Shown here: piece by piece, positions 14,225-20,565 of the stretch
Position numbering within the stretch: position 1 is the stretch's first letter
Layout of the letters: each line of letters starts with the position of its first letter
Assembly: GCA_913056235.1 (NCBI GenBank)
Contig: CAJXMW010000001.1
Span: 868,001 to 932,000 of the forward strand
Length of the DNA: 64,000 nt
Reading direction: 5' to 3'
From: an uncultured Fodinibius sp.
Lineage (GTDB): Bacteria > Bacteroidota > Rhodothermia > Balneolales > Balneolaceae
The notes under the pieces: model-generated
What the model saw: only the letters and a program-made list of their open reading frames with translations
Database searches by the model: none
What the model was told of the DNA's origin: nothing
Translations under genes and position numbers: made by a program

Positions 14225-14863
14225 CTATTTCGGTTCTTTTATCCAGATACCTGATACTGCGACTGAATCAACCGTTGCATCACGGATGAACTTCTTGAAT
14301 TCACCAAAGTTCTGTTCTTGTGGATCCAGTTTCTCACTGGTAATCTCGTAGTAGTACGTATTTTTGTCAGTGTAAATATCAAAATATACCTCGAATTGTC
14401 CGATTGGATCCTTGCTGCTGGTATTGCTGACTTTGTATTCGATATCCACGTCGGAGCTGTCGGCCGGTCCCGTCTGATACCATGACGTGACGGTTGCCTC
14501 CACCATTTCATTGGCAGTGCTTTCTTCGTCATTGGGTTCAATTACAATGCGGGCAGAGGTCGTACGGTTCTCTCTCACCATAATGGTCACGACTTCTTTC
14601 TTGTAACCCGATTTCGAAACACGGATTTGATAGCTGCCGGTAGGTACGCTGGTTAATTTAAATTTGCCACTACCGTCGGTCAGCATTACTTCTGTGGCCG
14701 GTGTTGTTTCTATGCTTACACCCTGGATAGTTTGTTGAGTTTCGCTGTGCATTACGCTCCCGTCGATATTGCCGAATAATTCGGTATCAACAATTTCGGT
14801 AGCGCATGACGATAGCAGTATCGACATGCATAACATAGCTGCTGTTTTGATGATCGTTTTCAT
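14225..14863 (-). CDS. curli-locus terminal lipoprotein with carboxypeptidase-regulatory-like domain
   Basis: A 212-residue lipoprotein; I start at ATG 14863 because it opens a clean SPII signal (MKTIIKTAAMLCMSILLSSC, Cys20). Residues about 30-110 form a carboxypeptidase-regulatory / CNA-B-like beta sandwich (GNIDGSVMHSETQQTIQGVSI through GSYQIRVSKSGYKKEVVTI). Residues about 120-205 form a second beta domain (VEATVTSWYQTGPADSSDV..., FEVYFDIYTDKNTYYYEI), perhaps FxLYD-like. It is the last gene of the minus-strand curli cluster, 19 bp after the third curlin-type gene. A role as surface anchor or fibre-associated factor is inferred from position. Confidence 0.75.
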   Translation of the reverse strand: MKTIIKTAAMLCMSILLSSCATEIVDTELFGNIDGSVMHSETQQTIQGVSIETTPATEVMLTDGSGKFKLTSVPTGSYQIRVSKSGYKKEVVTIMVRENRTTSARIVIEPNDEESTANEMVEATVTSWYQTGPADSSDVDIEYKVSNTSSKDPIGQFEVYFDIYTDKNTYYYEITSEKLDPQEQNFGEFKKFIRDATVDSVAVSGIWIKEPK

Positions 14864-14882: not shown

Positions 14883-15446
14883 TCAGTTGTTTTCGATGAT
14901 AATGGGGATCGAACGTCCTGTATTTTGTATTGATAGCGGAACTGATCCCACTCCCTGTTGTTGTAGTTGGAAGCCAAAGTTTGTGTGTAGGGCATTAAAT
15001 TGCAGGTTTGACCCCGAAATCTGGATATTGTTTTGGAGCCCAATGCCCAATTGAGTCATCCCAAACTCGTTAAAGTTACCCTCAATATTGATATTTGATG
15101 ATAAATTAAGCCCTTTCTGAATAAGTTGAGTGTTATTGTTATCGCCGTCAATATTAATTTCGCCCAAAATATTATATCCCTGTTGAGATATACCAGCGAT
15201 ATTATCGGATCCCAACATATTAATGCTGGCAGTATTATTTATACTTAATAGTGAGCCTCCCAAGCTGTTTAACCCGTTGAAAGCTGGAAAGGCAGTTACA
15301 AAATCTCTACTGAAGTTTTTAACTGCGTCGTTATGTTCAATAGAAGCTTGTTCGGGATACACTTCTATGTTTGTATCCTTTTGTTGCCCAAAAGCCATTA
15401 TGTAGGCTAGTCCCCATATGACAATAACTAATGTGATGTTTTTCAT
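14883..15446 (-). CDS. curlin-repeat protein, CsgB-like candidate
   Basis: A 187-residue secreted protein (signal MKNITLVIVIWGLAYIMAFGQ). Residues about 70-165 contain degenerate curlin repeats: NIAGISQQGYNILGEINI, NNNTQLIQKGLNLSSNINI and NEFGMTQLGIGLQNNIQI, i.e. Q-x-G-x-N spacing of about 22 residues. There are fewer and less regular repeats than in the two upstream curlins, plus an N-terminal non-repeat region and a hydrophobic C-terminal end (SIPIIIENN). That makes it the best candidate for a nucleator (CsgB) or capping subunit, though the assignment is inference. It sits between the larger curlin and the terminal lipoprotein. Confidence 0.78.
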   Translation of the reverse strand: MKNITLVIVIWGLAYIMAFGQQKDTNIEVYPEQASIEHNDAVKNFSRDFVTAFPAFNGLNSLGGSLLSINNTASINMLGSDNIAGISQQGYNILGEINIDGDNNNTQLIQKGLNLSSNINIEGNFNEFGMTQLGIGLQNNIQISGSNLQFNALHTNFGFQLQQQGVGSVPLSIQNTGRSIPIIIENN

Positions 15447-15550: not shown

Positions 15551-16717
15551 CTATTGCATAATTGTTGAAGTATTATTGTTACCTGTGATAGCGGCATCAG
15601 CTGTGTTGCCGTAGCCATGCTGGCTGATAAGTACATCGTTGTAGTTGCCTACAATACGAACGCCATCGGCGGCATAGAGTCCAGATCCTATTTCATTCTG
15701 AGATCCGTACTGCGCGATTCCTACTTCGTTGTAGGATCCGTCGATACCTGCTGATATCATGTTGTCATCATTTACTTGCAGAGCTACGAACAAGTTTGAC
15801 GAGTTTCCTCCACCGTTTGAGAATCCTGATCCCGTACCGCGTGAATTCAAGAACAGTTGGTTGCCCGTACCCATTTGCCCGGTAATCATGGTATTACCAT
15901 CACCCCAGAGCTCAAGTACAGACTTGTTTTCAGAGCCAATCATGGCCTGTAAAACAGTATTGTCTGATCCATCCGTCATACGCTGTGTTACCTGGTTGTT
16001 ATCACCTTCAATAAAAGCGTAGTTGTTATTGCTTCTGCCAACTTGTTTTAGTGATGCCTGGTTATTGTCGCCATAGATATTGACGCCATTACCGCTCCAG
16101 GCATTTCCGTTGAACAGGCTCTGGAGAAATCCAAATGCTCCTGTTTGAGTACCTTGTAGCGACAGCGTGGGAACCTCAAAAAGGACACCTCCGATTTTGT
16201 TATAATCGCCGGCTTGCTCGACGGATACTTCGTTATCGCTGCCGGTAATTGAACCGGATAACAGGTTTCGGTACCCATCTTGCCGTATGTCAGCTGTGTT
16301 GTTGTTATTATTGCTGCCATTTGACGGACGGCCGAAGAGACCTGGGCCCGTACCACGAGCATTCAGATAAATGAAGTTTTGTGCGCCTTTTTGAAGCACA
16401 GTATACTCATTTTGATTGCCCCACAATTCAACTCTTTGCTGGTGATAACCGCCGTACTGAGATTGGCTGATGGTATTTTCATCTCCCACATTGTACAGGC
16501 TGGCATTTTGGGTGTAGCCATCTTGGGTAATGGTTGATGAGTTATCAACGCCTTCTTGCTTGACACTTGCTTCCGAGTTGAATGCTTTTACTTGTGTGAT
16601 GGTAGACGTGTTGTCATTACCATCAATATCTTGCGAAGCGCTATTCGATGCATTCTGAGCAAAAGCCGCAGAACAGGCGAATACAGATGCAAATAGTAGA
16701 GTTCCTAGTTTTTTCAT
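15551..16717 (-). CDS. large curlin-repeat amyloid subunit
   Basis: A 388-residue CsgA-type secreted subunit. The ribosome site AAAGGAG lies 6 bp before ATG 16717 and abuts the other ATG at 16723, so I use 16717. The signal (MKKLGTLLFASVFACSAAFA) is followed by about 15 imperfect 22-25-residue units with the curlin core N-x5-Q-x-G, such as DNTSTITQVKAFN, VDNSSTITQDGYTQN and NQASLKQVGRSNN. Glycine/asparagine-rich linkers occur twice (near GTGPGLFGRPSNGSN and GTGSGFSNGGGN), suggesting an internal duplication. It ends on a half repeat (NNNTSTIMQ). It is predicted to be exported through CsgG and to polymerise into functional amyloid. Confidence 0.9.
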   Translation of the reverse strand: MKKLGTLLFASVFACSAAFAQNASNSASQDIDGNDNTSTITQVKAFNSEASVKQEGVDNSSTITQDGYTQNASLYNVGDENTISQSQYGGYHQQRVELWGNQNEYTVLQKGAQNFIYLNARGTGPGLFGRPSNGSNNNNNTADIRQDGYRNLLSGSITGSDNEVSVEQAGDYNKIGGVLFEVPTLSLQGTQTGAFGFLQSLFNGNAWSGNGVNIYGDNNQASLKQVGRSNNNYAFIEGDNNQVTQRMTDGSDNTVLQAMIGSENKSVLELWGDGNTMITGQMGTGNQLFLNSRGTGSGFSNGGGNSSNLFVALQVNDDNMISAGIDGSYNEVGIAQYGSQNEIGSGLYAADGVRIVGNYNDVLISQHGYGNTADAAITGNNNTSTIMQ

Positions 16718-16745
16718 AATCATCTCCTTTAGGTAATGGATGATT

Positions 16746-16791: not shown

Positions 16792-17709
16792 TTACTGGGT
16801 GATAGTAGCTGTGTTACCAATGCCAGCTACATTTACTGTGGCAGTGTTGTAATTACCATTTTGTGTAACACCAACAGTGTTATCCATTCCATTAACGACG
16901 ATACCGTTGCGGTCCCAGGGCACAGTATCAAAAACACTGTTGCCAATTCCATTTTGCATCAGGCTTACATCGTTGTAGTCACCAGAGATTGAAATACCAG
17001 CGTCACTTGATTTATCCTGATAGAATTCAAAAGTGTTGCCGTTACCTTCAATACTGGTAAACTGATCAGCATCGTGGGCTCCAAGGGTACCTGTAACAGT
17101 GTTTGAAGAACCAGAAACACCTAATACAAGCTTCTGCCACGCACCGCCGCTTTGGGTAATGTCCATCGTGTTGTAATCACCATTCACAGTAGCTTGTAGT
17201 ACAGAGTTGTCAGCACCACTAATTTGCTTGATGGTAGCTGAGTTACCGATACCTGACTGCTCCAATTCAGTAAGCATATCTGAGCTGGTATGCTGCGTCA
17301 GCTTAACGGAGTTATCTGAGCCGGCTTGCGAGATGTCGCCAGTGGCAGGTCCGTTGAATGCTGTGGCTTCAACCGAGTTATAGTTGCCTTGCTGATCAAC
17401 GGTGTATGAGATTGCCGCAGGTGATCCGCCCCAACCATCCCGAGATTTTAAGACTGCACTGTTTCCTTGGCCCACCTGATTGATAGATGCTACATCGTTA
17501 TTTGAGGTTATGCCTTGGATACCTTGCTCGATCATGGCTGCGTTACTACTACCATTTTGGGTAATAGTGGCTTCGTTGTTGCTTCCATCCTGTGCGATGT
17601 CAGAGCTATTATAGCTGCCAGTTGCTGTGCTTGACGCAGTGTTGTCTTGCGCAAACGCCATCGAGCTGGTAAGTACAATAGCGAACATTAAAGTTATTAG
17701 CTTTTTCAT
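16792..17709 (-). CDS. curlin-repeat amyloid subunit
   Basis: A 305-residue CsgA-type protein and the first structural subunit of the locus. Signal MKKLITLMFAIVLTSSMAFA, then about 12 curlin-like units: NEATITQNGSSNAAMIEQG, DVASINQVGQGNSAVLKS, DNSVKLTQHTSSD, NSATIKQISGADNSV and NTMDITQSGG. It ends with IGNTATITQ. A ribosome site AGGAG sits 8 bp before the ATG at 17709. The tryptophan-bearing insertions (DGWGGSP, GGAWQKL) are unlike E. coli CsgA. A 238-bp gap with structured elements separates it from csgG, so it may have its own promoter. Confidence 0.9.
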   Translation of the reverse strand: MKKLITLMFAIVLTSSMAFAQDNTASSTATGSYNSSDIAQDGSNNEATITQNGSSNAAMIEQGIQGITSNNDVASINQVGQGNSAVLKSRDGWGGSPAAISYTVDQQGNYNSVEATAFNGPATGDISQAGSDNSVKLTQHTSSDMLTELEQSGIGNSATIKQISGADNSVLQATVNGDYNTMDITQSGGAWQKLVLGVSGSSNTVTGTLGAHDADQFTSIEGNGNTFEFYQDKSSDAGISISGDYNDVSLMQNGIGNSVFDTVPWDRNGIVVNGMDNTVGVTQNGNYNTATVNVAGIGNTATITQ

Positions 17710-17947: not shown

Positions 17948-19372
17948 TCAAAACCATTTGCCTGGATTTAGATTTTTGAAAACTCCAGTGTTAAAAGTAA
18001 AACCGGCAAGTATATTCCATTGTTGGTCATTTATTGTACCTGCCTCGACCCCATCAATTCCTTCATTAACCAAATATCGATAATCCAATCCCACCCGTAG
18101 CCCAACATTGTTAGAAATACGATAATCCAGTCCTGCTTGCGCATTCAATGTTGGATACATGCCATTGTCGAACCAGCGTGATCCATTTGGCAACGCTGCT
18201 CCTTCCTGCAAAATCGGACTTCGTTCATAAATAATACCACCGCCTCCTACGCCAAGATAGGGCGACAGGGGATAGTTCGCCGTTAGGTAAGTTCTAATAT
18301 TCAGATCGAAGCCGAAATAATGCTCCGAGAAAACTTGGCTAACACCGATTTTTGATCGCTGTCCATTACCGGTTATTGAGATAAATGGATTCAAGAAATA
18401 TTCTAGCTGGACGCCGGCGCCGGCCGCGTTAATAGGATCGGCGTAATTACCTTTGTGTCCGCCATAGATAAAGTTCAATGAGGCATTGAATCCCTTTCGG
18501 AGGTTCGAGTTTTTATTGAGGCCAAAATAATCCAGTTCTACTTCAGAATCTTTGGCTTTGTCTTCATAAAAATCTCGTGTATAGGCACTAAAATTTTCTT
18601 GATCAAGTGGATTCCAGATCTGATCTTCAACTCCTTCGATCACCAGTATTCGCAAGGCCTCATCAATGGCTTCGGTAACAGCCATCACCGGTGGCTCGTT
18701 AAATGTGTAGCCAGCTTCGGCTTCCAAGAGGCGGTTTTCATCAATAAAACGGAATATGCCGCCGTCCAGTTGTTGTGAAATAATTGACTTAGTGGTATGA
18801 ACTGTTTTTAAAATCCGCCCGGATTGCGTAGAGACTGCACGAAGGTAAATCGTCACCTGATCTTTTCGAAACTGCCCAGAACCACCAATTCCAAAGTAAC
18901 GCAGTCCGGCTCCCCCGGTAATAATATTTGTGTCATATCCTACAATCCCACCTTCTAATAGTATGCCTGCAAATAGGAGGGGCGGTAGCGAGTTACTGTC
19001 ATTGTTTTGTGCACGCGTTGAATTGATGATTTTGCGCTCATTCAGCAGATTCGAAAGGTTCTCTCGCTCAATAGGGATAAACCATCCAGAGTTTGTCATG
19101 GCTTTCACAAGTATGGCCGTGGCGCCCTGCGTGACGGCTGTTGACCAACTAGCGACATTTTCTGATGGTTTATATTGGCCGGTTTGGTCACTAAAGCGAT
19201 ATACCGCAGCTACTACTTTTTCTTTGGGAGGGGGTATATCTTTTAGTTTAGATGCTACTTTACTTTCGACTCCCGGCTTAACTTCTTCAGTCTGGAATGG
19301 ATGAAAAACGGGAGCACATCCTAGTGCCAGTGATAAAAGGCCAATTGCCAATATGTGAAATAGTTTAACCAT
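17948..19372 (-). CDS. csgG: CsgG family curli secretion channel lipoprotein with C-terminal beta-barrel-like extension
   Basis: Outer-membrane nonamer that exports curlin subunits. I start at ATG 19372 (MVKLFHILAIGLLSLALGC, lipobox Cys19), 8 bp inside the csgF end, giving 474 residues. Residues about 20-265 match CsgG: KVVAAVYRFSDQTGQYKPS, ILVKAMTNSGWFIPIERENL, LLFAGILLEGGIVGYDTN, QVTIYLRAVSTQSGRILKTV and ITEAIDEALRIL-like segments. E. coli CsgG stops near 277 residues. Here about 190 more residues form alternating strands (NASLNFIYGGH, VQLEYFLNPFISITGNG, LRVGLDYRYL, WNILAGFTF), like a small OMP barrel. The gene is coupled to csgF. Confidence 0.9.
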   Translation of the reverse strand: MVKLFHILAIGLLSLALGCAPVFHPFQTEEVKPGVESKVASKLKDIPPPKEKVVAAVYRFSDQTGQYKPSENVASWSTAVTQGATAILVKAMTNSGWFIPIERENLSNLLNERKIINSTRAQNNDSNSLPPLLFAGILLEGGIVGYDTNIITGGAGLRYFGIGGSGQFRKDQVTIYLRAVSTQSGRILKTVHTTKSIISQQLDGGIFRFIDENRLLEAEAGYTFNEPPVMAVTEAIDEALRILVIEGVEDQIWNPLDQENFSAYTRDFYEDKAKDSEVELDYFGLNKNSNLRKGFNASLNFIYGGHKGNYADPINAAGAGVQLEYFLNPFISITGNGQRSKIGVSQVFSEHYFGFDLNIRTYLTANYPLSPYLGVGGGGIIYERSPILQEGAALPNGSRWFDNGMYPTLNAQAGLDYRISNNVGLRVGLDYRYLVNEGIDGVEAGTINDQQWNILAGFTFNTGVFKNLNPGKWF

Positions 19373-19805
19373 TGATATTTGGTATTGTAATGTTGGTTTC
19401 GTCACCAGTTAAAATATTATAGATGCGAATGGTTACGCCGTCTATGCCGGGATTTATGTCGATAGAAAACTCTCCGAACTCCAAGCTGCTCTCCTGTGAT
19501 AAATCGAAGTCGTCACCAAATTGATCGCGAACTAGATTCCTTGTTAGCTCAGATAAAATTTGTCGCTGTAGGGATTGCTGAAAGTCAGCCAATGGATCTC
19601 GTTCAAATCCAAAGCTTTGGGATCCTTTATATTTATTCTGCTGTGTCGCTGAACTCATCAACCATTGATAGTTCAGTGGACTGCCACCAAAGGCCGGGTT
19701 TTTGGGTCGATAGACCAATTCTTGAGCCAAGCCCTGTTGTGGTATAGCAAGCCCTATGCTTATCAGGCAAATTATGAAGGGCAAAAGTTGTTGTAGGTTC
19801 TTCAT
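19365..19805 (-). CDS. csgF: CsgF curli assembly factor
   Basis: Secreted chaperone/adaptor that caps the CsgG pore and links it to the growing fibre. The 146-residue protein has a signal (MKNLQQLLPFIICLISIGLA) and the diagnostic mature N-terminus ELVYRPKNPAFGGSPLNYQW, the segment that inserts into the CsgG channel in E. coli. The rest (FQQSLQRQILSELTRNLV, then GEFSIDINPGIDGVTIRI) follows the CsgF family to the end. Its ATG at 19805 is 1 bp after the csgE stop, and its end overlaps csgG by 8 bp, so E-F-G are one tightly coupled unit. Confidence 0.95.
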   Translation of the reverse strand: MKNLQQLLPFIICLISIGLAIPQQGLAQELVYRPKNPAFGGSPLNYQWLMSSATQQNKYKGSQSFGFERDPLADFQQSLQRQILSELTRNLVRDQFGDDFDLSQESSLEFGEFSIDINPGIDGVTIRIYNILTGDETNITIPNING

Positions 19806-19806
19806 G

Positions 19807-20565
19807 TCAGTACTGAATAAGTTGGTTTGCAGTTTGTGACTTTTGCTGGAGGCTGTGATAACTCATAGCAACAGCTTGTTTGGCCTGCTCTTCGATTTTT
19901 TCATAGCGTGGTTGGAGCCTCGACTGGTACACTGCTTGGTTATCAAGCTTTACCGTTACGAGCGTCCCGAGAGACGGAAGTGGCTTTTCGCTGATAGCCA
20001 GCATAAAGTTTGGAGCGTTGGACGGAGCTTCCCAATAGCGGTAGAAAATGCTGAAGAAATCTTTACCCAGTTTGCTGCGCGTCTCATCGATTACAAGTCC
20101 GCCAAATTCCAGCCCATTGCTATGCTGCTCGGGTTCTTGGGGAGCTTGTTTTTGCTTGCCAATAAGAGTGCTGAAAGCCTTGCGAAATTTTTCAAGTCGA
20201 TCTTCGGCTTCTAAGCTGTCGATACTGTTGCTGTAGCTGCCAACAAATTTTTGGGATTGGGTGACAGAAGCCGGAATGATAAGTTTCTGACCGGGATAGA
20301 TAAGATCAGGATTATCAATTTGTTCAGCATTGGCCTCATAAATCTCGATCCAGAAGTTGGGGGTGCCAAAATGAACTCCGATCTTAATGAGATTGTCGCC
20401 GGGTTTAACAGCATATGTGAGTATATCTGTTTTACTTTGCGCATGAGCAGGACTACTACCGATCAAGAAAACGACAAATAGAAGAAGCCCGAGCACGAAA
20501 GCGAACACTCTTTTTGGCGATTTGAAAATTCTGTAGATCTTACTCTTTTTTTTCGGTAAAAACAT
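19807..20565 (-). CDS. csgE: CsgE-like curli assembly factor with N-terminal LysM domain
   Basis: A 252-residue protein. A membrane-spanning or signal segment lies at residues about 20-42 (FAFVLGLLLFVVFLIG). Residues 51-98 form a LysM domain (YAVKPGDNLIKIGVHFGTPN to YPGQKLIIPAS), expected to bind peptidoglycan. A charged linker follows, and residues 155-238 match CsgE: GLVIDETRSKLGKDFFSIF, LAISEKPLPSLGTLVTV and VYQSRLQPRYEKIEEQ correspond to the GLLTDHT...IGHDFY, ERPSARWGS and F.FPLKR blocks of E. coli CsgE. CsgE gates CsgG from the periplasm; here it may be tethered to the cell wall. First gene of the locus. Confidence 0.9.
   Translation of the reverse strand: MFLPKKKSKIYRIFKSPKRVFAFVLGLLLFVVFLIGSSPAHAQSKTDILTYAVKPGDNLIKIGVHFGTPNFWIEIYEANAEQIDNPDLIYPGQKLIIPASVTQSQKFVGSYSNSIDSLEAEDRLEKFRKAFSTLIGKQKQAPQEPEQHSNGLEFGGLVIDETRSKLGKDFFSIFYRYWEAPSNAPNFMLAISEKPLPSLGTLVTVKLDNQAVYQSRLQPRYEKIEEQAKQAVAMSYHSLQQKSQTANQLIQY

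Follow-up and report, generated by a model that had tools for sequence, protein, structure and literature searches.

Curli secretion has been worked out mainly in E. coli, in which CsgE is a bare small cap. The E. coli protein (NP_415557; PDB 2na4) has 129 amino acids and a sole Pfam match, to CsgE; it has been described as a nonamer that caps the CsgG channel and as a binder of CsgA (PMC6050966, PMC7304575), and its head residue R47 has been called invariant across Gram-negative species (PMC6050966). A link to the cell wall has been described for other export channels. TsaP, a LysM protein of the type IVa pilus secretin complex, is reported to bind peptidoglycan in the PilQ complex of M. xanthus (PMC7545093), and the periplasmic coiled coil of FapF, the trimeric functional-amyloid transporter of Pseudomonas, has been suggested to interact with peptidoglycan or to anchor beneath it (PMC5557850). 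The chaperones CsgC and CsgH are Ig-like amyloid inhibitors, and CsgC is encoded by a separate gene in E. coli. CsgH-like sequences have been reported in Bacteroidetes, with no mention of a fusion to CsgE in the accessible part of that paper (PMC4838910).

The window analyzed here, by which we mean the whole stretch of 64,000 nucleotides, encodes a protein in which CsgE is preceded by a LysM domain. Both domains and the secretion system were already known; LysM-CsgE is a variant architecture that recurs. Neither this architecture nor the fusion of CsgC/CsgH to CsgE described below was found in the literature searched, the scope of which excluded supplements, most subscription papers and preprints.

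The LysM-CsgE protein and its curli cluster

The gene is located on the minus strand at positions 19807-20565, starts with ATG and encodes 252 amino acids. The earlier note had proposed a LysM domain at residues 51-98 and a CsgE-like domain at residues 155-238, and profile searches bear out both assignments. Pfam places LysM (PF01476) at residues 51-98 (20272..20415, minus strand; 35 bits, E = 1.4e-8, above the cut-off of 20.9) and CsgE (PF10627) at residues 156-246 (19828..20100, minus strand; 86.2 bits, E = 2.2e-24, above the cut-off of 25). The NCBIfam models for CsgE (PRK10386, 1.5e-14) and LysM (PRK11198, 1.6e-11) match as well, both under their equivalog cut-offs. A sequence search against the PDB retrieved E. 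coli CsgE (2na4) at residues 152-242 with an E-value of 7.4e-6, and for the LysM part SafA (7r1l, 2.5e-6) and Kbp (7pvc, 3.7e-6).

The AlphaFold model, made from an alignment of 14 rows, has a mean pLDDT of 80.1 and a pTM of 0.40. Averaged over blocks of ten residues, the pLDDT is 93-96 across LysM (51-100) and 89-97 across residues 161-240 of CsgE, with a minimum of 39 in the linker, and the two domains are thus each well predicted, whereas their placement relative to each other is poorly predicted. The sole Foldseek match in the PDB at E <= 0.001 is CsgE 2na4 (5.3e-5, TM by target 0.68), by which the protein has the CsgE fold, a three-stranded sheet with helices. Next comes a phage baseplate protein (9gb2), the LysM of which matches with E = 0.019 and an rmsd of 0.9 A over 53 columns, and the beta-alpha-alpha-beta order of LysM is present in the model (strand 49-52, helices 59-65 and 71-78, strand 94-97).

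At the N-terminus, the earlier note had left open a membrane segment or a signal, of which the signal is the likelier. Residues 1-42 (20440..20565, minus strand) consist of MFLPKKKSKIYRIFKSPKRV / FAFVLGLLLFVVFLIG / SSPAHA, followed by Q, and include a hydrophobic helix at residues 17-36 in the model. By eye, these residues appear to be a signal peptide that would be cleaved between AHA and Q, and given this motif a membrane anchor is not favored for the window protein. In several relatives a clear cleavage motif is absent by eye, and these may retain an uncleaved N-terminal anchor. Between the two domains, the model predicts a linker helix at residues 117-139 (20149..20217, minus strand) with an FRxAF-type motif. 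The motif belongs to the majority consensus of 33 CsgE proteins from the Balneolales (alignments A2 and A4) and is also found in L002, where our own LysM profile finds no LysM.

The minus-strand order of the cluster is LysM-CsgE, CsgF, CsgG, two curlins, a small CsgB-like protein and a carboxypeptidase-regulatory-like lipoprotein. The start of csgF (19365..19805, minus strand; PF10614, 1.1e-36) is separated from the stop of csgE by a single base. It is followed by csgG (17948..19372, minus strand; PF03783, 6e-66; PDB CsgG, 1.5e-59; lipobox LALGC), the likely start of which is the ATG at 19372, giving an overlap of 8 bases with the end of csgF. Since both domains are confirmed and the gene lies directly upstream of those for CsgF and CsgG, the description of the locus as a curli gate with a LysM stands. 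Two curlin subunits come next, at 16792..17709 (minus strand; Curlin_rpt PF07012, 3.2e-23, four stretches) and 15551..16723 (minus strand; Curlin_rpt, 6.8e-18, seven stretches), and then the small CsgB-like protein with curlin repeats (14883..15446, minus strand; Curlin_rpt 0.0063, under the cut-off). The lipoprotein at the end of the cluster (14225..14863, minus strand, start by sequence reading; PF13715, 1.1e-13; lipobox LLSSC) has no annotated counterpart among the 10 features of the csg stretch of E. coli K-12. Relatives of the lipoprotein and of the CsgB-like protein were identified in 24 and 16, respectively, of 41 wider curli stretches (phmmer, E < 1e-5), a set in which some stretches occur twice.

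The CsgG protein also has a C-terminal region of about 200 amino acids that resembles an outer-membrane beta-barrel (residues 304-471 of the 485-amino-acid open reading frame; 17993..18496, minus strand; PF13505, 0.0012, under the cut-off). PF13505 matched all six CsgG proteins scanned, those of the window, L031, L033, L035, L043 and L054, with E-values from 0.017 to 6.5e-7, one of them above the cut-off. If this domain is real, each channel would carry nine additional small barrels.

In Pfam, PDB sequence and fold comparisons, as well as in the adjacency of csgF and csgG, the window protein resembles E. coli CsgE. It differs in the head residues: in the alignment, S198, L199 and Q230 stand in place of R47, W48 and F79 of the E. 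coli protein. An arginine in the R47 column is found in none of 34 rows from the Balneolales and in 2 of 36 other rows, counts that depend on the alignment; one column further on, it is found in 13 of the 34 and 17 of the 36 rows. In the loop of the third strand, the residue after the proline is a leucine in E. coli and R220 in the window protein, and is arginine or lysine in 27 of the 34 rows from the Balneolales. Because the E. coli head residues are replaced, the window protein may bind its substrate and form rings in a different way. Since R47 is not kept, we make no claim to substrate contacts of the E. coli type, and the name CsgE rests on Pfam, fold and gene context. The same role as in E. 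coli is to be expected, since CsgG and CsgF are encoded adjacently. It is from family and gene context, rather than from conserved contact residues, that the window protein would be expected to gate CsgG, and from its family that it would presumably act as a chaperone and form a nonamer.

The genome to which the window belongs (3.97 Mb, 9 contigs) was found to encode one CsgE, one CsgF and one CsgG. The only other LysM matches found in it lie in two proteins, the first of which carries an SLT transglycosylase domain and the second a DPBB domain of the lytic transglycosylase type. The LysM of the window scores 37.9 bits in this comparison; of the six remaining LysM repeats in the genome, five score higher (52.9-64.5) and one ties with it. 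Among the plasmid matches listed (20 of 50 records), none covered 80% of the query in one place.

Distribution of the architecture in the Balneolales

The Balneolales are a group of salt-loving bacteria. A scan of named genomes confirmed 21 loci among 44 candidate stretches, namely 11 in the Balneolales (Fodinibius, Aliifodinibius and others), 9 in the Saprospiraceae and one in a Nitrospina MAG. CsgE was identified in 40 of 394 genomes sampled from the phylum, and in the order Balneolales in 27 of 128 genomes, at 34 places. Thirty-three of these places were scanned, the 34th (L066) being left out as interrupted by a TAG codon, and at E 0.01 Pfam recognized a LysM in 22 of the 33 proteins and none in the other 11. 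At the same threshold, no LysM was found in 38 CsgE proteins from outside the order, which comprise 27 of the 28 phylum loci (without the split L025), the 9 proteins from the Saprospiraceae, L063 from Nitrospina and E. coli CsgE, the one representative of the Proteobacteria in the survey. The LysM-CsgE architecture, which the earlier note had suggested surveying, is thus an order-level trait of the Balneolales. A LysM profile of our own detected the domain in 26 of the 33 proteins at 1e-3, a count that is circular in that the profile was grown from such proteins; in these 26, the linker from LysM to CsgE is 54-125 residues long.

The earlier finding might also be put down to a chance fusion or an assembly artefact. 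Nothing was found in favor of this explanation, and the same architecture recurs in many separately assembled genomes; we therefore reject it as having next to no probability.

Other arrangements were seen within and beyond the order. In L066 (940-1791), which comes from a genome of 83% completeness, an in-frame TAG separates an upstream LysM from the CsgE part in the same frame, which may represent an error or decay. A DUF4168 domain is found at the N-terminus of 6 of the 33 proteins at E 0.01 (L083-L088, family f56), where it precedes a weak or undetected LysM region; these proteins reach 511 amino acids, and two of them (L083, L085) are partial. Of 77 genomes in the group sampled via the Nitrospina locus, 8 encode CsgE, seven in frames of 125-165 amino acids and one (L163, 266 amino acids) with a lysine-rich extension that appears to be of low complexity by eye; the Pfam scan of this group covered L063.

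A proposed peptidoglycan tether and its alternatives

On balance, we favor the hypothesis that LysM-CsgE is a periplasmic gate and chaperone for CsgG that is tethered to peptidoglycan. The protein would be exported and its signal peptide then removed, after which the CsgE domain would act as in E. coli by carrying CsgA and capping CsgG as a nonamer. The LysM domain, on its long linker, would bind glycan strands of the peptidoglycan and thereby keep the cap at the wall beneath the outer membrane. A nine-fold cap could make up to nine weak wall contacts, which may keep either the CsgG gate or a reserve of loaded adaptors near the channel. Glycan binding and tethering are what we infer from the domain type. 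A tether is plausible because the other LysM proteins of the genome have wall-enzyme domains and because TsaP provides a precedent at the pilus secretin, and a linker of 54-125 residues is long enough for it. Like the window protein, TsaP places a LysM module at an outer-membrane export channel, but its channel and partner are unrelated and the LysM sequence similarity is weak (3jc8_Ta, E = 0.3). FapF is a functional-amyloid transporter for which an association with peptidoglycan has likewise been suggested, a likeness drawn from its description.

The ligand of the LysM domain could be another one. Some LysM domains bind chitin-like glycans, and the domain might accordingly grip a GlcNAc-rich polysaccharide of the matrix, or curlin, instead of peptidoglycan. 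However, the signal peptide and the CsgE partner would imply a periplasmic location, and the abundant GlcNAc glycan of that compartment is peptidoglycan; we regard such a target as very improbable.

The gate can exist without a LysM, since 11 of the 33 proteins are without a Pfam match and since our own profile finds none in L031, the CsgE copy of genome G211 that is linked to csgF and csgG. In a tree of the CsgE domain, the LysM label needs 8 changes. A single gain of LysM in the Balneolales followed by losses is likely, and not more than likely because the tree is short on columns (96), the Balneolales do not form one clade in it (monophyly is not rejected, p-AU 0.131) and the label changes so often. 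Both the 11 proteins and the 8 changes would also suit the hypothesis of a LysM that has been inherited but has lost its glycan binding, and that now acts as a spacer or in protein contacts or is in decay. Consistent with this, there is a single one-residue gap in the alignment to the LysM of Kbp, which is potassium-binding according to its PDB name. Kbp is a cytoplasmic protein. Against a loss of binding, the LysM blocks GDxL and NPxLIxPGQxLxIP are kept in the majority consensus of alignment A2, and the domain remains above the Pfam cut-off in all three of the extra CsgE copies without csgF and csgG that are described below. We consider the loss of binding unlikely and retain the peptidoglycan tether as the preferred hypothesis.

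Some genomes encode more CsgE proteins than channels. G211 (98% complete, 50 contigs) encodes three CsgE proteins but single copies of CsgF and CsgG, and in G418 two CsgE proteins are found with one CsgF and one CsgG. The additional copies, three in total (L015/L093, L032 and L079/L090), are LysM-CsgE proteins with LysM scores of 26.4-30.9 bits, and neither csgF nor csgG was found beside them within the stretches examined. They adjoin ten genes with curlin-type repeats (four, four and two, respectively), of which four were scanned and all four exceeded the Curlin_rpt cut-off. These observations raise the alternative that substrate routing is the main function, with LysM-CsgE proteins as interchangeable adaptors that each serve their own curlin set through one shared CsgG and are merely parked by the LysM. 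In keeping with this, E. coli CsgE has been called a secretion specificity factor in the title of a 2011 paper (cited in PMC3521004). The pattern is, however, confined to 2 of the 27 Balneolales genomes with CsgE, and the window genome has one CsgE. Furthermore, the extra CsgE proteins of three other genomes are accompanied by extra CsgF and more than one CsgG: G459 and G466 have two of each, and G465 is a partial exception with three CsgE and three CsgF for two CsgG. Copies may have been missed in G418, G459, G465 and G466 because these assemblies are fragmented (150-440 contigs). Routing as the main function appears improbable to us, and a wall tether remains the explanation that we favor for the LysM.

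Other fusions to the CsgE N-terminus and what they imply

In flavobacteria-like and Saprospiraceae genomes, about 110 residues at the N-terminus of CsgE are CsgC/CsgH-like and occupy the same slot as the LysM in the Balneolales (L019, L023, L027, L035, L054, L060 and relatives). In single proteins, Pfam at E 0.01 matched Tafi-CsgC in 8 of the 38 proteins from outside the order (best 4.5e-5) and CsgH in 2 of 38 (best 8.2e-6), and all of these matches with bit scores listed fall under the cut-off. Four of six flavobacteria-like proteins match CsgC (4.5e-5 to 0.0087); no CsgC/CsgH match was obtained by Pfam in the two others, L034 and L039, nor in L055 and the free product of L025. A profile of 14 flavobacteria-like N-terminal domains retrieves CsgC from the PDB (2xsk, 2y2t) at 6e-6, with the next, unrelated match at 0.016. 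The model of L060 from the Saprospiraceae (mean pLDDT 68.4) has seven strands, as in the seven-stranded Ig-like fold, and its top two Foldseek matches are CsgH (2n59, 2.1e-6) and CsgC (2xsk, 1.8e-5; TM by target 0.76). In all, 72 chains matched at E <= 0.001, and among the 50 listed the other 48 are unrelated proteins (factor XIII, GH2 enzymes and others), many of which share a similar beta sandwich. The evidence from groups of proteins is thus stronger than that from single proteins, which is weak. The front end of CsgE looks like a swappable slot for helper domains.

In one large genus, probably Flavobacterium, CsgE was identified in 72 of 299 genomes, and judged by the length of the open frames 35 of these loci are split and 37 fused. 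We inspected 36 split junctions, namely all 35 of the genus and L026 of the phylum survey; the two junction sets contain 26 split loci of 31 and 10 of 20, the remaining 5 and 10 being fused. In all 36 (L025:1455-1474, L026, L106-L121, L123-L128, L130, L132 and L141-L150), the upstream frame enters exactly A10 followed by G and soon stops, and CsgE lies in the -1 frame. The upstream product of L025, in which Pfam finds no CsgC, shares 57% identity over 128 residues with the CsgC-like region of L030, a fused protein. The zero frame at the junction reads AAA AAA AAG, within which A AAA AAG is the heptamer known from dnaX. On both strands of the split loci there are 40 runs of A10 versus 8 of A9 and 2 of A11, and A10G is also kept, in frame, in at least three of the fused loci (L131, L151, L157). 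No signal peptide is visible by eye in the CsgE frame of the split loci, and export would therefore need the shifted product. This arrangement looks like programmed recoding by -1 frameshifting or slippage.

Natural fusions indicate partners that act together; in CsgE, one and the same terminus bears a module of the wall-binding type in some lineages and an anti-amyloid chaperone in others. We tentatively propose, as a broader and more doubtful hypothesis, that lineages rewire the curli gate by fusing domains to an open slot at the N-terminus of CsgE. In the Balneolales, a LysM would hold adaptors at the wall, with several per channel and their own curlin sets in some genomes, and in flavobacteria-like lineages CsgC/CsgH would be fused to CsgE, with one genus using programmed -1 slippage at A10G to set how much chaperone is free relative to the chaperone-gate fusion. 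If the LysM binds peptidoglycan, the protein would represent a wall-anchored amyloid secretion gate, comparable to the LysM proteins that serve pilus secretins, and the genomes with several adaptors per channel would provide a clean natural test of CsgE as a specificity factor.
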